Origin: a virus
Length of the DNA stretch: 25,553 bases
IMG/VR virus record: IMGVR_UViG_3300037520_001251
Span: 1 to 25,553 of that record
Reading direction: 5' to 3' (one strand)
Within the stretch, counting starts at the first letter, position 1, and the number at the start of each line of letters is the position of its first letter. The position numbers and the translations under genes are program-made. Below are positions 4,171-13,777 of the stretch, piece after piece. The notes beneath the pieces are model-generated. The model had not been told where the DNA came from. It saw only the letters and a list, made by a program, of their open reading frames with translations, and ran no database searches.

Positions 4171-4938
4171 ATGATAAAAAAACGATACACATACGAAGAT
4201 GTTATGAACGCAGTTGGAAAATCTAAATCAGTTGCGAATGTTTTAAGGTTGGTTGGTTTAAAAGATAAAGGTGGAAACTACCGAACAATGAAAAAATTTA
4301 TATTAGATAATAATATTGATATAACTCATTTTACCGGACAAGGGCATAATGTTGGTGAAAATTACAAAAGATTGAACGACATAATACCGATTGAATATTA
4401 TTTGGTTGATGGTTTAATGTATTCGAGTTGTAGTTTAAAAAAAAGACTTATAAATGAAGGGATAAAAGAATATAGATGTGAAAATTGTAATTTAGATTCT
4501 TGGTTAGATAAAAAAATACCATTAGAACTGCACCATATTGATGGAAACCACTTCAATAATAAATTGGATAATATCCAAATATTGTGTCCTAATTGTCACG
4601 CAAATACACCTAATTATAGGGGTAATAACAAATCAATTAAGTCGACACCAAAAAATATGAGGGAAATGTATCCAGAACTTTTTGAAAAAAAAGAAAGGGC
4701 AATTAAATTAAAAAAAGTTGAGAAAAATTACATTAGGTTGGAGGATCGAATTTGTGAGTGTGGTAAAAAAATTGGTAAAAGAAGTAAAACTTGTGAAACT
4801 TGCTACCAAATAAATAGTAGAAAAGTAGAAAGACCAAAAAGAGAAACATTATTAAAAGATATTGAATCTTTAGGGTATTTGGGAACAGGAAGAAAATATG
4901 GTGTTAGTGATAATTCAATTAGAAAATGGTTAAAATAA
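4171..4938 (+). CDS. HNH homing-type endonuclease with C-terminal zinc and helix-turn-helix domains
   Basis: The 255-aa product begins with a helix-turn-helix-like region (YEDVMNAVGKSKSVANVLRLVG). The HNH core follows: CENC, then LELHHIDGNHFNNKLDN, then CPNCH. A second small zinc motif (CECGKK...CETC) comes next. The C-terminus has GYLGTGRKYGVSDNSIRKW, a DNA-binding helix-turn-helix tail also present at the end of the unrelated-fold nuclease at 7015-7917. This is a typical free-standing phage homing endonuclease. It lies beside tRNA-Leu(TAA) and has its own promoter box. The nuclease call is firm; the target is unknown. Confidence 0.92.
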   Translation: MIKKRYTYEDVMNAVGKSKSVANVLRLVGLKDKGGNYRTMKKFILDNNIDITHFTGQGHNVGENYKRLNDIIPIEYYLVDGLMYSSCSLKKRLINEGIKEYRCENCNLDSWLDKKIPLELHHIDGNHFNNKLDNIQILCPNCHANTPNYRGNNKSIKSTPKNMREMYPELFEKKERAIKLKKVEKNYIRLEDRICECGKKIGKRSKTCETCYQINSRKVERPKRETLLKDIESLGYLGTGRKYGVSDNSIRKWLK

Positions 4939-4944
4939 AAAAGA

Positions 4945-4976
4945 TTTGGCAGATTAAAAAAGATTATATATCTTTG
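4945..4976 (+). promoter_or_regulatory. strong host-type promoter for the pseudoknot RNA
   Basis: TTTG (4945-4948), 20-nt spacer, TATCTTTG (4969-4976), then GTAAGACAAAT. The spacer GGCAGATTAAAAAAGATTA is identical to that of the promoter at 5137-5168. Confidence 0.85.
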
Positions 4977-4981
4977 TAAGA

Positions 4982-5125
4982 CAAATCGGTTTAGAAGTTA
5001 ATTGCCTGATTATACAGTAATCCTCCCGATCACAGGCAGAAAGGAGGTAAACAACTAAACCAAAAAAAAACGAGGGAAGGGTTGGAACGTCTGTAAAACC
5101 TTGGTTTCCTAAACCTCGAAAAAAA
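4982..5125 (+). ncRNA. pseudoknotted RNA with an anti-16S (SD-like) sequence
   Basis: The RNA begins about 6 nt after a strong promoter and has no ORF. The outer helix is 4988-4994 with 5055-5061 (GGTTTAG/CTAAACC). Inside, TGCCTG (5003-5008) pairs with CAGGCA (5033-5038), and CCTCC (5022-5026) with GGAGG (5043-5047). These two helices interleave as an H-type pseudoknot. AGAAAGGAGGT (5038-5048) is complementary to the expected Bacteroidetes 16S 3' end, yet no start codon follows closely. A second hairpin, CGAGG (5071-5075) with CCTCG (5114-5118), lies downstream and is followed by an A-run, not T. The 3' end is uncertain. Confidence 0.65.
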
Positions 5126-5136
5126 AATAAAAAAGA

Positions 5137-5168
5137 TTTGGCAGATTAAAAAAGATTATATATCTTTG
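5137..5168 (+). promoter_or_regulatory. strong host-type promoter for structured RNA A
   Basis: TTTG (5137-5140), 20 nt, TATCTTTG (5161-5168). Repeat of the promoter at 4945, followed by a GAACAAATAAGGAA leader like those at 6587 and 8001. Confidence 0.87.
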
Positions 5169-5173
5169 TAGAA

Positions 5174-5398
5174 CAAATAAGGAATAAAGGTTCTTTGAAA
5201 TATTAGAAAACATTGTGGTTGTAAGAAACGGGAAACTCGTAAAGTGTATCAACCTGTTAAATCAAGATAGTGAAACGAGAGTTTGATTTAACTACTAAAC
5301 TACAGTAAATATTGTGTTGTTCCCTTGAGAAAGGAATACTTCCATCGAGTTGGAAGAGTGTTAATCCCGTCACTACAACACAGAGGATCTCAACCTCA
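5174..5398 (+). ncRNA. structured RNA A ending in the kissing-loop module
   Basis: An untranslated transcript of about 225 nt. It starts after a strong promoter, carries a boxA-like site at 5190, and ends 5 nt before a tRNA. Helices: GGTTG/CAACC (5217-5221 with 5250-5254) enclosing ACGGG-AAA-CTCGT; TTAAATCAA/TTGATTTAA (5257-5265 with 5283-5291). Its 3' part (5313-5397) has TGTGTTGT/ACAACACA, a hairpin with loop containing TTGAGA (5325-5330), a variable hairpin CTTCC/GGAAG, and a final hairpin GAGG-ATCTCAA-CCTC whose loop complements TTGAGA. This 3' module is conserved at 8451-8548. RNase P cutting of the tRNA would leave its 3' end just after the last hairpin. Function unknown. Confidence 0.7.
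5190..5204 (+). promoter_or_regulatory. boxA-like site in structured RNA A
   Basis: GTTCTTTGAAATATT, a variant of the 17-mer at 311 and 4004, about 17 nt downstream of the predicted transcription start. Bacteroidetes rRNA leaders carry very similar sequence. Confidence 0.5.
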
Positions 5399-5403
5399 CA
5401 TTT

Positions 5404-5478
5404 GGTGCGGTAGCTCAGAAGGTAGAGCAAAGGAACGGAAAATCCTTGTGCCGGTGGTTCGATTCCATCCCCTCACCA
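5404..5478 (+). tRNA. tRNA-like gene with 8-nt anticodon loop, identity unclear
   Basis: Acceptor GGTGCGG/CCTCACC (one mismatch), D-arm GCTC...GAGC and T-arm GGTGG-TTCGATT-CCATC are good. The anticodon stem AAGGA/TCCTT encloses ACGGAAAA, 8 nt with no clear U33. A GAA (Phe) reading is possible but not secure. It follows structured RNA A by 5 nt. Confidence 0.65.
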
Positions 5479-5569: not shown

Positions 5570-5645
5570 TTGCGAGCGGACAGGTTGGTATCTGGGGGGG
5601 TCTCATAAGCCTCATAAATCTGGTTCAATTCCAGAGCGACGCAAC
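5570..5645 (+). tRNA. tRNA-like, CAT anticodon, bulged acceptor stem
   Basis: TTGCG/CGCAA plus GC/GC form an acceptor interrupted by A on one side and GA on the other. D-arm CAG-GTTGGTAT-CTG, anticodon arm GGGGT-CTCATAA-GCCTC, T-arm TCTGG-TTCAATT-CCAGA. This is the third CAT anticodon in the window. Confidence 0.65.
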
Positions 5646-5651
5646 TAAAAT

Positions 5652-5732
5652 GCTGACGTACCGGTGGATGCTTATATCATCTATGCCCGTAGAGGAAAGT
5701 TTGAAACGTTGGTTCGAGTCCAACCGTCAGTA
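5652..5732 (+). tRNA. tRNA-like lacking a normal D-arm, possible Ile (TAT)
   Basis: Acceptor GCTGACG/CGTCAGT and T-arm GTTGG-TTCGAGT-CCAAC are clear, with A73. GGATG-CTTATAT-CATCT (5666-5682) looks like an anticodon arm with TAT, but only 7 nt separate it from the acceptor, and about 25 nt follow before the T-arm. An alternative hairpin TCTA/TAGA overlaps it. Identity is uncertain. Confidence 0.5.
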
Positions 5733-5733
5733 C

Positions 5734-5950
5734 GGGAGTGTATACAGTAGAGTTCTACTTGTGAGAAGATGGTAACACGCACTTAAAATGGGGGTTACAA
5801 GGTGGCAAGTCGTTTTTTAGTTTTTGCGATAAAAACTAACGTTGTTGTGGAGATAGTTTGACGTGATAAACTTACACCCGTGATGTTAGTGGGTTTGATC
5901 ACCCCTTTCACGTAAATGTGATGAAACAATCCCAAGGAGTAGTCACAAAT
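5734..5950 (+). ncRNA. structured RNA between tRNA-like 5652 and tRNA-Gly
   Basis: A 217-nt gap with no supported ORF. AGTAG/CTACT forms a hairpin near 5749-5762. TTAGTTTTT (5817-5825) pairs with AAAAACTAA (5831-5839) around GCGAT, extended by CG/CG after a T-bulge. ACGTGA (5862-5867) pairs with TCACGT (5908-5913) and encloses GGGT/ACCC (5891-5894 with 5901-5904). TTTTTGCGATAAA (5821-5833) is repeated exactly inside the tRNA-like gene at 9407-9539. No known family is recognised. Confidence 0.5.
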
Positions 5951-5951
5951 T

Positions 5952-6023
5952 GCAGGTATCGTATAACGGTTATTACCCCACACTTCCAATGTGGAGATCT
6001 CGGTTCGATTCCGGGTACCTGCT
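5952..6023 (+). tRNA. tRNA-Gly (anticodon TCC)
   Basis: Acceptor GCAGGTA/TACCTGC, D-arm GTAT...TTAC, perfect anticodon arm CCACA-CTTCCAA-TGTGG, T-arm CTCGG-TTCGATT-CCGGG, and T73 as usual for Gly. Confidence 0.95.
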
Positions 6024-6025
6024 CA

Positions 6026-6205
6026 AAATGAAACAACAGAAGACGGATTAGCGCCGTTGAAAGGAACCTTGGCTCTCACAGGATCGCAACCTTTAACGAG
6101 AGTTGGAATGCCCCAAGGTACTCTGTTCAGATCCCTGCTCTGATGTGCACGTCAACAGGTTATGGGGAACAAACCATAAGTAAAAATCGTAGAAATGTTT
6201 CATTT
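6026..6205 (+). ncRNA. 180-nt structured RNA closed by a perfect 10-bp helix
   Basis: AAATGAAACA (6026-6035) pairs with TGTTTCATTT (6196-6205). Inside are ACGG/CCGT around ATTAGCG; ACCTTGG/CCAAGGT (6066-6072 with 6113-6119) enclosing CTCTC/GAGAG (6073-6077 with 6098-6102); CAGA/TCTG near 6128-6142; and TTATGG/CCATAA (6160-6165 with 6174-6179). It begins 2 nt after tRNA-Gly and ends 5 nt before tRNA-Ala, so tRNA processing would release it. No ORF or known family. Confidence 0.65.
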
Positions 6206-6210
6206 ATTTT

Positions 6211-6286
6211 GGGCTGGCATGTACCAAGGCTTTGGCGAGAAACACTTGCAATGTTTCTGTGGTGAGTTCGATTCTCATCCGGTCCA
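6211..6286 (+). tRNA. tRNA-Ala (anticodon TGC), unusual D-arm
   Basis: Acceptor GGGCTGG/CCGGTCC, anticodon arm AAACA-CTTGCAA-TGTTT extended by two further pairs, T-arm GTGAG-TTCGATT-CTCAT, A73. The D region holds CCAA-GGCT-TTGG rather than a standard D-arm. Confidence 0.82.
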
Positions 6287-6290
6287 CGAA

Positions 6291-6377
6291 GTTCGGAGTA
6301 ATTAACCGAACCTAACAAGAAGATGGGTCATATAGCCTAAGGAAATTTGTCGACACTAATTCCTGTCTGTCTTCTTG
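6291..6377 (+). ncRNA. two-hairpin structured spacer
   Basis: GTTCGG/CCGAAC (6291-6296 with 6306-6311), then CAAGAAGA/TCTTCTTG (6316-6323 with 6370-6377, 8 bp), enclosing GGAA/TTCC and a TGTCGACA palindrome. It fills the space between tRNA-Ala and the next tRNA-like gene. Confidence 0.5.
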
Positions 6378-6381
6378 ATTA

Positions 6382-6456
6382 ACTACTTATGGTGTAAACT
6401 GGTTTGCACATCGGACATAGTCCGAAGGGTTATAGGTTCGAGTCCTATGGGTAGTT
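6382..6456 (+). tRNA. tRNA-like gene with abnormal anticodon loop
   Basis: Acceptor ACTACTT/GGGTAGT, D-arm GTG...CAC and T-arm ATAGG-TTCGAGT-CCTAT are good. The anticodon arm is TCGGACATAGTCCGA, which folds as a 5-bp stem with a 5-nt loop, or as CGG/CCG with loop ACATAGT lacking U33. No anticodon can be assigned. Confidence 0.6.
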
Positions 6457-6461
6457 CAAAT

Positions 6462-6945: not shown

Positions 6946-7017
6946 GGCCCATTCGTCTAAAAGTAAGGACATATGGTTTTCAACCATAAAATCTCGGAGC
7001 GTTACCGGGATGGGCTA
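6946..7017 (+). tRNA. tRNA-Glu (anticodon TTC)
   Basis: Acceptor GGCCCAT/ATGGGCT, D-arm GTC...GGAC, anticodon arm TATGG-TTTTCAA-CCATA and T-arm CTCGG-AGCGTTA-CCGGG. Its last three bases are also the stop codon of the convergent minus-strand gene. Confidence 0.9.
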
Positions 7018-7917
7018 CAATCCTTTATCGTAAGAAATTAACCACTTACGTATTGCATTATCAGAAACACCAAACATTTTACCGGTTCCAACATAACCGT
7101 GTTTACTAACTAAAGTTTTTAGTTCTTCAAATGGGGGTCTATCTACTCTTCTTTGACTCCTTATTGATTGGATTTGTTTTTCAGTAAAACCAAATTCATT
7201 TCGTTCTTTTTTTTGTCGTTTTTTTGGGTGTACAACCATACCAATTTTTATATTATTTACTTTTGGTTTTTCATTTAATATTGAAGTAATTTTATTAAAA
7301 ACTTCTTTAATGTTAGTTTTAATTTCATTTTCTGAAATTCTAACAACAAACCAACCAAGATCATTTAAAAGTTTATCTTTCTTATCATCACTTTCTTTTC
7401 TTTCTGGTAAAAGATGTTGGGATCCGTCAATTTCAATTGCAACCATTTGATTAACAAACGCAAAATCAACAAAATAAGGAAAAACAGAATATTCTCTTAT
7501 TATAGAGTATTTTTTATCTAAACCATTTGATTCAACATACTTAATAAAAAGTTTTTCAGGATATGAAACATTGGACAATCTCCAAGCAGTTTTTTCTGGA
7601 TTATTTTTCATAAACTCCAACCTCTTTTCTCTCATTATTTTTTTACTTTCTTCAGTATGTTTGAATTTTTCTGGATATTTTTTATGTGCAATTTTATTTG
7701 ATTCGGATAATGATCTAATTTTATCACCTAAAACATTTTTAATATCATCTGATTGTAACTTAAATTTGTTTCTTAAATCTCTAACTGAATAATCCTCATT
7801 TATATAAAGATTGATGATTTCATCTTTTATTTGCGATAATTTTTCACATTTTTTAATGTGTTGATTAAGATTACCCAAATTATCTAACTTACGATTACAA
7901 ATTTTACATTTAAACAT
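7015..7917 (-). CDS. Vsr/DUF559-like homing-type endonuclease
   Basis: The product is 300 aa from the ATG at 7917, chosen because AAAGGAGG lies 7 nt upstream; an upstream in-frame ATG at 7944 lacks this. The N-terminus has a zinc-finger-like CKICNRK...HIKKC. A PD-(D/E)xK core of the Vsr/DUF559 type follows: YFVDFAFVNQMVAIEIDGSQH, then GWFVVRISENEI. The C-terminus GYVGTGKMFGVSDNAIRKW matches the tail of the HNH enzyme at 4171-4938. This combination is typical of free-standing phage homing endonucleases. It is the only minus-strand gene in the tRNA region, and its stop overlaps tRNA-Glu by 3 nt. Target unknown. Confidence 0.88.
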   Translation of the reverse strand: MFKCKICNRKLDNLGNLNQHIKKCEKLSQIKDEIINLYINEDYSVRDLRNKFKLQSDDIKNVLGDKIRSLSESNKIAHKKYPEKFKHTEESKKIMREKRLEFMKNNPEKTAWRLSNVSYPEKLFIKYVESNGLDKKYSIIREYSVFPYFVDFAFVNQMVAIEIDGSQHLLPERKESDDKKDKLLNDLGWFVVRISENEIKTNIKEVFNKITSILNEKPKVNNIKIGMVVHPKKRQKKERNEFGFTEKQIQSIRSQRRVDRPPFEELKTLVSKHGYVGTGKMFGVSDNAIRKWLISYDKGL

Positions 7918-7933
7918 AATACCTCCTTTATAT

Positions 7934-7942
7934 ATAAATATC
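7934..7942 (-). promoter_or_regulatory. putative phage promoter (ATATTTAT box, minus strand)
   Basis: On the minus strand the order is GATATTTAT, TATATAAAGGAGGT, then the ATG at 7917. Box and strong Shine-Dalgarno support the chosen start. Confidence 0.55.
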
Positions 7943-8000
7943 ACGAACCCACAAAAAAGTCATACAAACTAACCTAAAAATTAATTTTTTTTAAAAAACA

Positions 8001-11727: not shown

Positions 11728-13326
11728 ATGATTAAAAAACGTAAACTATTAATAATACCATCTGTAATCTTGATGGTTATTTTTCTTTTAACTAAAATTT
11801 TTGTTTTATCGGGTCTTATTGAAGCCACTGATATAACAAGAATTATTGAGATATCTTGCTTTTTATTATTTTCCCCATTATTTTATTTCTTAATGAAATC
11901 TCAAACCGTAGAATTAAAAGGTGAATTATTAAAACAAATAAAAGATAGTGAAGATTTTATTGATTCTGCAACCATTGTTTCTGTTGCCGATAAATACGGT
12001 AAAATCACATACGTTAATAAAAAATTTGAAGAAGTATCGGGTTGGTCTTTAGATGAGGTTAAAGGTGAAGATCATAGTGTTGTTAACTCTGGATTACAAC
12101 CTGATGGATATTGGGGTAAGATGTATGAAAAAGTAATGAAAGGTGAGATATGGAATGATGTTGTTACCAATAAAGGAAAGTCAGGAGAACTATATTATGT
12201 TGATACATATATTAGGGCAAGATTTGATAAAGATGGTAAATTAGAAGGGTTTTCATCCATCAGACAAGATGTGACAGAGCTTAAGAAAAAAGAAGTTGAG
12301 ATCCGTAATAGAATGAATGCAATAAATAAATCTAATGCTGTTATTGAATTTGATTTAGAAGGTAACATTATTTTTGCTAACGATTTGTTTTTAAATACTA
12401 TGGGGTATTCATCAATTGATGAAATAGTCGGAAAACACCATAGAATATTTATAGATGACGATCATTCAAAAAGTGAAGAATATAATATTTTTTGGAAAAA
12501 ATTAAATGATGGTGTATTGTTTACTGGTGAAGTTACAAGAATTAAAAAAGATGGGTCCATTGTATATCTGCAATCGACTTATAACCCTATTGTTGGTTTA
12601 GATGGTAAAATTTATCGTATTATGAAAATAGCCACTGATATCACTAACTCTCATGAACAAAGAAAAGAGATTGAAAAGAAAAACACTTACTTAGAACACG
12701 CAGCAAAGATATTAAGACACGACATGCATTCAGGCATTAATACATATATGCCAAGAGGATTGAGTTCTTTAGAAAGAAGGTTAAGTTCTGAAGATATTAC
12801 ATCATTAAAAATTGAGGCACCTATTAGAATGATTAAAGAAGGTTTAAAACATTCTCAAAAAGTATATAAAGGTGTCTATGAATTTACTAATTTAGTTAAA
12901 AAAGACGTTGTTCTAAATAAGTCGGAATGTAATTTAAAAACCATTCTAACTGATTATTTGTCATCAACCGCATATCTAAGTCAAGTAATTATTGAGGACT
13001 TACCAACAATAGAAGTAAACGAGGCGTTATTTTGTACCGCAGTAGATAACCTTATTAGAAATGGTTTAAAGTATAATGATTCAGATACTAAGTTTGTTAA
13101 AATTTATTCTGATGGAAATAATATCCATATACAAGATAATGGTAGAGGAATCACACAAGAAGATTTTGATCACCTACGTAAACCATACATAAGAAAAGAA
13201 GGACAGAAAGAATCAGGTACTGGTTTGGGGTTAAATATTTGCGTTGCAATTTTAGAAGAACACGGGTTTAGTATCACTTGTGAGAAAAATGAAATAGGAA
13301 CAAAAATGAAAATAAAAATAAAATAA
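11728..13326 (+). CDS. membrane sensor histidine kinase with two PAS domains
   Basis: The 532-aa product has two N-terminal membrane helices (about 8-29 and 40-58). A PAS domain follows (about 70-185; VADKYGKITYVNKKFEEVSGWS), then a second (about 190-310; EFDLEGNIIFANDLFLNTMGY). The dimerisation helix carries LRHDMHSG with H331 as likely phospho-acceptor. The HATPase has N-box DNLIRNGLKYN (440-450), G1 DNGRG (470) and G2 GTGLGL (497). All ATP-binding motifs are present, so it should be active. It would phosphorylate the receiver protein 14 nt downstream. The stimulus is unknown; lacking a periplasmic domain, it likely senses the membrane or cytoplasm. Histidine kinases are uncommon in phages. 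Confidence 0.93.
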   Translation: MIKKRKLLIIPSVILMVIFLLTKIFVLSGLIEATDITRIIEISCFLLFSPLFYFLMKSQTVELKGELLKQIKDSEDFIDSATIVSVADKYGKITYVNKKFEEVSGWSLDEVKGEDHSVVNSGLQPDGYWGKMYEKVMKGEIWNDVVTNKGKSGELYYVDTYIRARFDKDGKLEGFSSIRQDVTELKKKEVEIRNRMNAINKSNAVIEFDLEGNIIFANDLFLNTMGYSSIDEIVGKHHRIFIDDDHSKSEEYNIFWKKLNDGVLFTGEVTRIKKDGSIVYLQSTYNPIVGLDGKIYRIMKIATDITNSHEQRKEIEKKNTYLEHAAKILRHDMHSGINTYMPRGLSSLERRLSSEDITSLKIEAPIRMIKEGLKHSQKVYKGVYEFTNLVKKDVVLNKSECNLKTILTDYLSSTAYLSQVIIEDLPTIEVNEALFCTAVDNLIRNGLKYNDSDTKFVKIYSDGNNIHIQDNGRGITQEDFDHLRKPYIRKEGQKESGTGLGLNICVAILEEHGFSITCEKNEIGTKMKIKIK

Positions 13327-13339
13327 AAAAAAAGAAAAA

Positions 13340-13777
13340 ATGATTGATTCAATTTTATTAGTGGATGATGAGGATTTATTCCATTTGGTATTTGAAGACG
13401 CTTGTTCGTTACTTGACATAAGTTTGTCTTTAAATGCGTTAAATAGTTCTGACGAAGCAGCAAAACTATTTGAAAAATGGTTCAAAAGTGGGGAGGATAA
13501 TGATAAACCTGAATGTGTGTTTGTTGACCTAAATATAATTGGTAGTTCCTTTGATGGTATTGAACTAATTAGAAAAATTAATTTTGAATACGGTAATCAC
13601 GTAGTTATCGGTATTATTTCATCAAGTAATGAACCAGAAGAACAAGCAAAGGCGATCCAAGCGGGTGCTCAATTTTGGATTATTAAATCTGATGACATTG
13701 AACCTCGTTTAGAAGAATTTAGAAATGATTATGAAGGTTATAAAAATAGAACATTACCATTTAAAGTTTACAAATGA
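13340..13777 (+). CDS. receiver-domain response regulator without output domain
   Basis: The 145-aa product is a stand-alone receiver domain. Acidic pair D9/D10 (ILLVDDEDLF), phospho-acceptor D63 (CVFVDLN), S94/S95 in place of the conserved Ser/Thr (GIISSSNEP) and K116 (FWIIKSDD) are all in place. No DNA-binding domain follows, so it probably acts by protein binding, like CheY. It lies 14 nt after the kinase and overlaps the next gene by 4 nt, suggesting the partner may be the coiled-coil membrane protein encoded there (inference). Confidence 0.93.
   Translation: MIDSILLVDDEDLFHLVFEDACSLLDISLSLNALNSSDEAAKLFEKWFKSGEDNDKPECVFVDLNIIGSSFDGIELIRKINFEYGNHVVIGIISSSNEPEEQAKAIQAGAQFWIIKSDDIEPRLEEFRNDYEGYKNRTLPFKVYK

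Follow-up and report, generated by a model that had tools for sequence, protein, structure and literature searches.

A conserved phage RNA carries the extended Shine-Dalgarno sequence of flavobacterial rpsU without a start codon and is a candidate decoy for the 16S rRNA tail

We found that a viral record with a dense tRNA array holds a compact, conserved non-coding RNA containing the 11-nt sequence AGAAAGGAGGT. This sequence is fully complementary to the 3' tail of flavobacterial 16S rRNA and identical to the extended Shine-Dalgarno (SD) sequence of rpsU, the gene for bS21, and it precedes no coding sequence in the RNA. We are nearly certain that the conserved RNA is real, and its SD probably engages the 16S tail. 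That it does so as a trans-acting mimic of rpsU, and thus as a decoy, is the reading we favor, at slightly less than even confidence. Our fuller proposal is more tentative and open to considerable doubt: the RNA would copy the rpsU extended SD, jam ribosomes that lack bS21 and cut the autoregulation of host bS21, and the phage would then control which bS21 is used and hence which mRNAs are translated. Such an RNA would be a natural decoy of the 16S anti-SD, possibly the first of its kind.

The window, by which we mean the whole stretch of DNA analyzed here (25,553 nucleotides), is a 25.5-kb viral record with Bacteroidota-type promoters (TTTG-N18-TAxxTTTG) in addition to its tRNA array. It is syntenic with other uncultured phage contigs, of which G002 (IMGVR 3300008117_000445) is the closest. 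The prohead protease of G002 shares 61% identity with its counterpart in the 634-kb phage LR745206, so the window probably represents part of a very large phage genome. The promoter type and the relatives point to a Bacteroidota/Flavobacteria-like host; rRNA and rpsU were read from Flavobacteria in general rather than from a proven host. Inside the tRNA array are HNH-type and DUF559-type putative endonuclease genes (1317-1859, 4171-4938, and 7015-7944), and the one at 4171-4938 is similar to homing endonuclease genes from T5-like and crAss-like phages. A tRNA at 5404-5478 was found by Rfam (41.7 bits) and missed by ARAGORN, and several other tRNAs of the array have odd anticodon loops. Farther along, positions 11728-13777 hold a gene pair that is like a PAS-domain sensor histidine kinase (by Pfam) and, on sequence only, a response-regulator receiver.

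The RNA and its promoter comprise the following parts:

4945-4976, + strand: putative Bacteroidota-type promoter TTTG-N18-TATATCTTTG driving the RNA (pattern match, 0 mismatches)
4980-5061, + strand: conserved non-coding RNA (three homologous lineages, no ORF, no Rfam family)
4988-4994/5055-5061 plus 4997-4999/5050-5052, + strand: outer helix (complementarity; G-C to G-U in G001)
5004-5008/5033-5037, + strand: predicted pseudoknot helix S1, GCCTG/CAGGC (complementarity; invariant)
5009-5021, + strand: possible small hairpin ATTAT-ACA-GTAAT in the first loop (invariant in three lineages; marginal energy)
5022-5026/5043-5047, + strand: predicted pseudoknot helix S2, CCTCC, which would mask GGAGG (complementarity; invariant)
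5038-5048, + strand: extended SD AGAAAGGAGGT, 11 nt (complements the whole 11-nt 16S rRNA 3' tail)

An equivalent of the upstream promoter stands at the same place in all homologues, and an identical copy lies at 5137-5168, directly 3' of the RNA. We infer from the perfect match that the RNA is transcribed from its own promoter, in agreement with a preliminary description of this DNA that had called it promoter-driven. The same description had located the outer helix, the two interleaved helices and AGAAAGGAGGT at 5038-5048, and its coordinates and pairings were correct when the sequence was read again. The folded core is 74 nt long (4988-5061, + strand) and is closed by the outer helix with the ends GGTTTAG...CTAAACC (4988-5061). 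The 5' end of the RNA is probably near 4980; the 3' end is uncertain and has no T-run terminator. A downstream hairpin at 5071-5118 was rejected as part of the element, being absent from the homologues and folding no better than shuffles.

The pseudoknot is plausible from the complementarity of its strands. Crossing helices of equal stability that include GGAGG arose in 0.24% of composition shuffles with the SD held fixed, and any crossing helix pair arose in 53% of the same shuffles. The nested fold of 4980-5064 had a z of -2.1, with 5/200 shuffles as good, and that of a larger stretch around the RNA was no better than shuffles (z = -0.57). Nested alternatives to the pseudoknot also fold well. 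As for conservation of the helices, which the preliminary description had proposed to look for in related phages, both are kept in all three distinct sequences, but none of the ten pairs of S1 and S2 varies, so there is no covariation. Rfam searches at gathering and permissive thresholds gave no family for the RNA, the only gathering matches in the window being tRNAs. A search of RNA families and of the literature (open-access papers) gave no earlier description of it.

We then compared the 11-mer with flavobacterial ribosomes. GGAACACCTCCTTTCT was present at all 21 rRNA loci of 16 Flavobacteriaceae genomes, and the 16S 3' tail, ACCUCCUUUCU, is fully complementary to AGAAAGGAGGT at each of them. 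The pairing with the Bacteroidetes 16S end, which the preliminary description had put forward, is thus borne out over all 11 nt. Our first search pattern for the 16S end, GGATCACC, had no match because Flavobacteria have GGAACACC. Among 80 Bacteroidota rpsU leaders that we fetched, exact AGAAAGGAGGT was found in 34, AGAGGAGGT in 27, and GGAGG in 73. The AUG follows GGAGG by 7 to 10 nt in the 34 exact-match leaders; at this spacing the phage RNA reads CTAA and has no ORF. The exact match is limited to part of the family, the rpsU SD in the genus Flavobacterium itself being GAGAGGAGGTG. The identity of the motif with the rpsU SD goes beyond the preliminary description. Nothing beyond the 11-mer was common to the phage RNA and either rpsU leaders or rRNA operons, and an origin of the RNA from one of these was rejected.

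Chance does not readily supply such a sequence. Under a first-order Markov model, the expected number of copies of AGAAAGGAGGT is 0.014 for the window and about 2e-5 for 74 nt; when at most one mismatch is allowed, the window has four matches versus 0.74 expected. Each carrier contig has it once, each time in the RNA. ORFs led by an SD are rare in these phages (1/32, 1/210, 1/109, and 0/22 ORFs). Matches to AGAAAGGAGGT in other contigs were set aside as follows: the one in G020 belongs to a GAGA-loop hairpin of a different array RNA, those in LR756504 are antisense to gene leaders, and that in G028 is probably coding. Of the converse sequence, that of the 16S tail (ACCTCCTTTCT), the genome of LR756504 (L304, 636 kb) has four copies, all within its first 5.7 kb (near 444, 985, 3300, and 5616); three of these stand just before small paralogous genes.

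The window contains further structured-looking non-coding stretches between tRNAs. Those at 5180-5405 and 5640-6460 are long, 75 to 90% conserved in G002, and without an Rfam family at gathering score. One of them includes a CCUU-GAGA-AAGG hairpin at 5315-5330, whose G020 equivalent reads AGAAAGGAGGT by chance. After the second promoter, at 5189-5205, stands GGTTCTTTGAAATATT, which we take to resemble the boxA/rRNA leader of Bacteroidota. The motif recurs at tRNA operon heads in relatives, which suggests rRNA-like antitermination of the phage tRNA operons.

Exact scans of 2.9 million viral contigs for homologues of the RNA identified three other IMG/VR carriers, namely, G001 (155 kb), G002 (69 kb), and G003 (17 kb), which belong to two further lineages. 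G002 and G003 are identical in sequence around the RNA, giving three distinct RNA sequences in total. Over 66 nt, these differ at 2 (window/G001), 3 (window/G002), and 5 (G001/G002) positions, for an identity of 92 to 97% between lineages. Between G001 and G003, the GOLLD RNA in these tRNA arrays is 61% identical, the few proteins found to be common to G001 and G002 are 37 to 59% identical, and the genes of the window and G002 mostly have 67 to 78% DNA identity. Per 15-column block, identity is 0.7 to 1.0 inside the RNA and mostly 0.2 to 0.6 outside, the exceptions with higher identity being A-rich spacers and the promoter boxes. Every homologue keeps the SD-like stretch unchanged, so the lack of conservation that would have spoken against the preliminary description is not seen. 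Within the RNA, the lineages differ by a single base next to S1 and by at most four bases of the S2-S1 loop, and in the outer helix a G-C pair has become G-U; in G001, where this last change occurs, the outer helix has gained two further pairs. The RNA is flanked by its own promoter and the second promoter in all lineages, and its neighbors differ. Because conservation is confined to the RNA and the promoter boxes, the alignment pattern is that of an RNA under constraint and not that of a segment copied recently, although the piece may have been exchanged at some time.

The RNA was absent from the huge relatives LR745206 and LR756504 and from 50 related contigs. Scans of the viral collection with RNA patterns, with promoter plus SD, with a UCUCA-type SD variant, and among prohead protease relatives returned only the three homologue contigs and chance or coding matches, and a bacterial-genome scan with the RNA core had no match. 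Two carriers have the GOLLD RNA (RF02032) in their tRNA arrays (L053 18529-18936 and L056 11836-12246, both on the - strand); in G001, its distance to the SD RNA is about 1 kb. As ribosomes bind GOLLD in pull-downs (PMC12286853), these arrays may hold several ribosome-related RNAs.

The biology of rpsU gives the shared SD its interest. In Flavobacteriales, rpsU is essentially the sole SD gene and its SD is extended; the 16S tail (A1534-U1544) is buried by bS21, bS18, and bS6, and rpsU is translated by ribosomes without bS21 (McNutt et al. 2023, PMC9976891). The same work speculates that bS21-encoding phages may also encode products that help to replace host bS21 and proposes that the autoregulation of rpsU serves the host as a counter-defence when phages replace bS21 (PMC9976891). 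In our proposal, a large phage of Flavobacteria-like hosts would make an RNA of ~80 nt, using a dedicated promoter within the tRNA array, and this RNA would offer the extended SD of host rpsU without a start codon, in a small folded domain. The tail would be exposed only on 30S subunits that lack bS21, the ones that translate rpsU, and there the RNA would pair with it in trans in competition with rpsU mRNA. The feedback that replenishes host bS21 would be blocked, or such subunits would be held for the benefit of the phage. The phage bS21 genes inspected in huge relatives, which have no extended SD, would escape this block, and the counter-defence of rpsU autoregulation would be disabled. A decoy for the 30S anti-SD had already been suggested in the preliminary description, and the identity of the motif with the extended SD of host rpsU lends this strong circumstantial support; binding to the 30S, competition with rpsU, and the benefit to the phage are what we infer.

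We calculated the predicted net binding to the tail, with the cost of nested refolding paid, as -6.3, -6.5, and -5.4 kcal/mol for the three sequences, compared to about -0.6 kcal/mol with GGAGGT changed and a median of -11.4 kcal/mol for the rpsU leaders. These values take in nested structure only; the pseudoknot was left out and would weaken binding further. By this calculation, the RNA is a specific but weaker binder per molecule than the rpsU leaders, and it would therefore have to be abundant or be opened by something. The earlier suggestion that the GGAGG switches between paired and exposed forms is thermodynamically plausible, since binding to the tail is still favorable by about 5 to 6.5 kcal/mol after the nested structure is unfolded, but S2 is invariant and covariation neither supports nor refutes it.

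The distribution of bS21 bears on the proposal as well. The protein is encoded by the huge relatives LR745206, LR756504, and LR756511 and by 6 of 25 other related contigs. In the two genes inspected, those of LR745206 and LR756504, the Tyr54-equivalent tyrosine is kept and there is no extended SD. The RNA and bS21 were found together in no contig, all carriers being fragments; LR745206 and LR756504, which are complete bS21-encoding relatives, are without the RNA, and this counts against a decoy.

Several other accounts of the RNA were weighed. It might engage the 16S tail to activate or to switch: it would free the tail from the bS21 pocket, or open only on a signal, and so convert or mark subunits for the phage instead of titrating them from rpsU. 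The invariant S2 could mask the GGAGG, and binding weaker than that of the rpsU leaders suits a switch better than a plain sponge. However, the phages have almost no SD-led genes for altered ribosomes to favor, no ligand site or trigger was identified, and we regard this account as unlikely. A cis-acting role is rather improbable. Here, the RNA would be a leader or a processing or antitermination element of the tRNA operons, with the SD-like stretch recruiting a ribosome or other factor to the nascent transcript. In all lineages it stands between tandem promoters at the head of the tRNA array, with GTTCTTTGA boxA/rRNA-leader-like motifs nearby and no T-run terminator after it, and this would fit such a role, but the second promoter directly downstream makes tRNAs without the RNA, most promoters of the same arrays lack it, and a cis element does not require perfect complementarity to the 16S tail. 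Improbable to a similar degree is a real RNA that acts via a protein ligand or another RNA target, its SD-like stretch being a coincidence or a structural strand only. Conservation is as high in the remainder of the RNA as in the SD, which implies that other parts matter too; against this stand the low chance of the 11-mer in 74 nt (about 2e-5) and its identity to the natural rpsU SD.

The remaining accounts explain less. Recent DNA exchange between phages, with no special constraint, could give high identity, and G001 is otherwise distant from the other carriers while the RNA is missing from the 50 related contigs. It is nevertheless very unlikely, as identity falls where the RNA ends, the spacers of the promoters are not alike, and what changes there are lie in a loop, lie beside a helix, or keep a pair. 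A GGAGG in a small folded RNA also resembles CsrB-type sites, but a decoy for a Csr/Rsm-type GGA-binding protein is extremely improbable with one GGA site only. This candidate was rejected when no CsrA was detected in 13 records (seven Flavobacteriaceae genomes, the carriers, and two huge phages) by a search that fires in controls such as E. coli and B. subtilis. The sole ATG, GTG, or TTG inside the RNA is the TTG at 5002, which opens 18 codons (5002-5058) in the window and G002. That these encode a tiny peptide is scarcely conceivable and was rejected, because the TTG is an in-frame TAG stop in G001 and no homologue has a start codon 3' of the SD within the RNA. The preliminary description had held that the stretch is not a normal ribosome binding site, and no overlooked coding start contradicts it.

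The rpsU-mimic reading matters because in Bacteroidota the ribosomal anti-SD is hidden and serves almost solely for bS21 regulation, and many phages of these bacteria encode bS21. A phage RNA with the exact rpsU SD links control by the anti-SD and bS21 to phage bS21. This suggests that the bS21 feedback loop, which has been proposed as a host counter-defence, is itself what phages attack. If true, the RNA would represent a new type of decoy, and it might be used as a tool for controlling SD-dependent translation in Bacteroidota.

The phage RNA is like the Flavobacteriales rpsU leader (PMC9976891) in having the same extended SD, AGAAAGGAGGT, as 34 of the 80 leaders, complementing the whole 16S tail. 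Unlike the leader, it has no start codon or gene, is folded, has its own promoter, and shares no other sequence. 6S RNA and CsrB/CsrC are small RNAs that mimic a natural target and titrate a central machine or regulator. If our reading is right, the phage RNA is like these decoys in having the recognition sequence of the natural target without its product. It is unlike them in that its presumed target is the 16S anti-SD of the 30S rather than RNA polymerase or CsrA, in its one site, and in having no sequence relation to them. In particular, the CsrB/RsmZ family has several GGA sites in hairpin loops and acts with CsrA, whereas the phage RNA has a single site and the tested records have no CsrA. 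Sequestering of an SD in a small pseudoknot, as predicted here, is known from the preQ1-I and SAM-II riboswitches, but these have a regulated gene downstream and the phage RNA does not; in Rfam, the only riboswitch match was SAM-II, at 13.3 bits versus a cut-off of 44 and outside the RNA element. Phage-encoded bS21 (Chen et al. 2022, PMC9723584) is a protein rather than an RNA, and the two were never found in one contig, but both would act at the same site, the 16S tail/bS21 platform of Bacteroidota ribosomes, and they come from similar phages.
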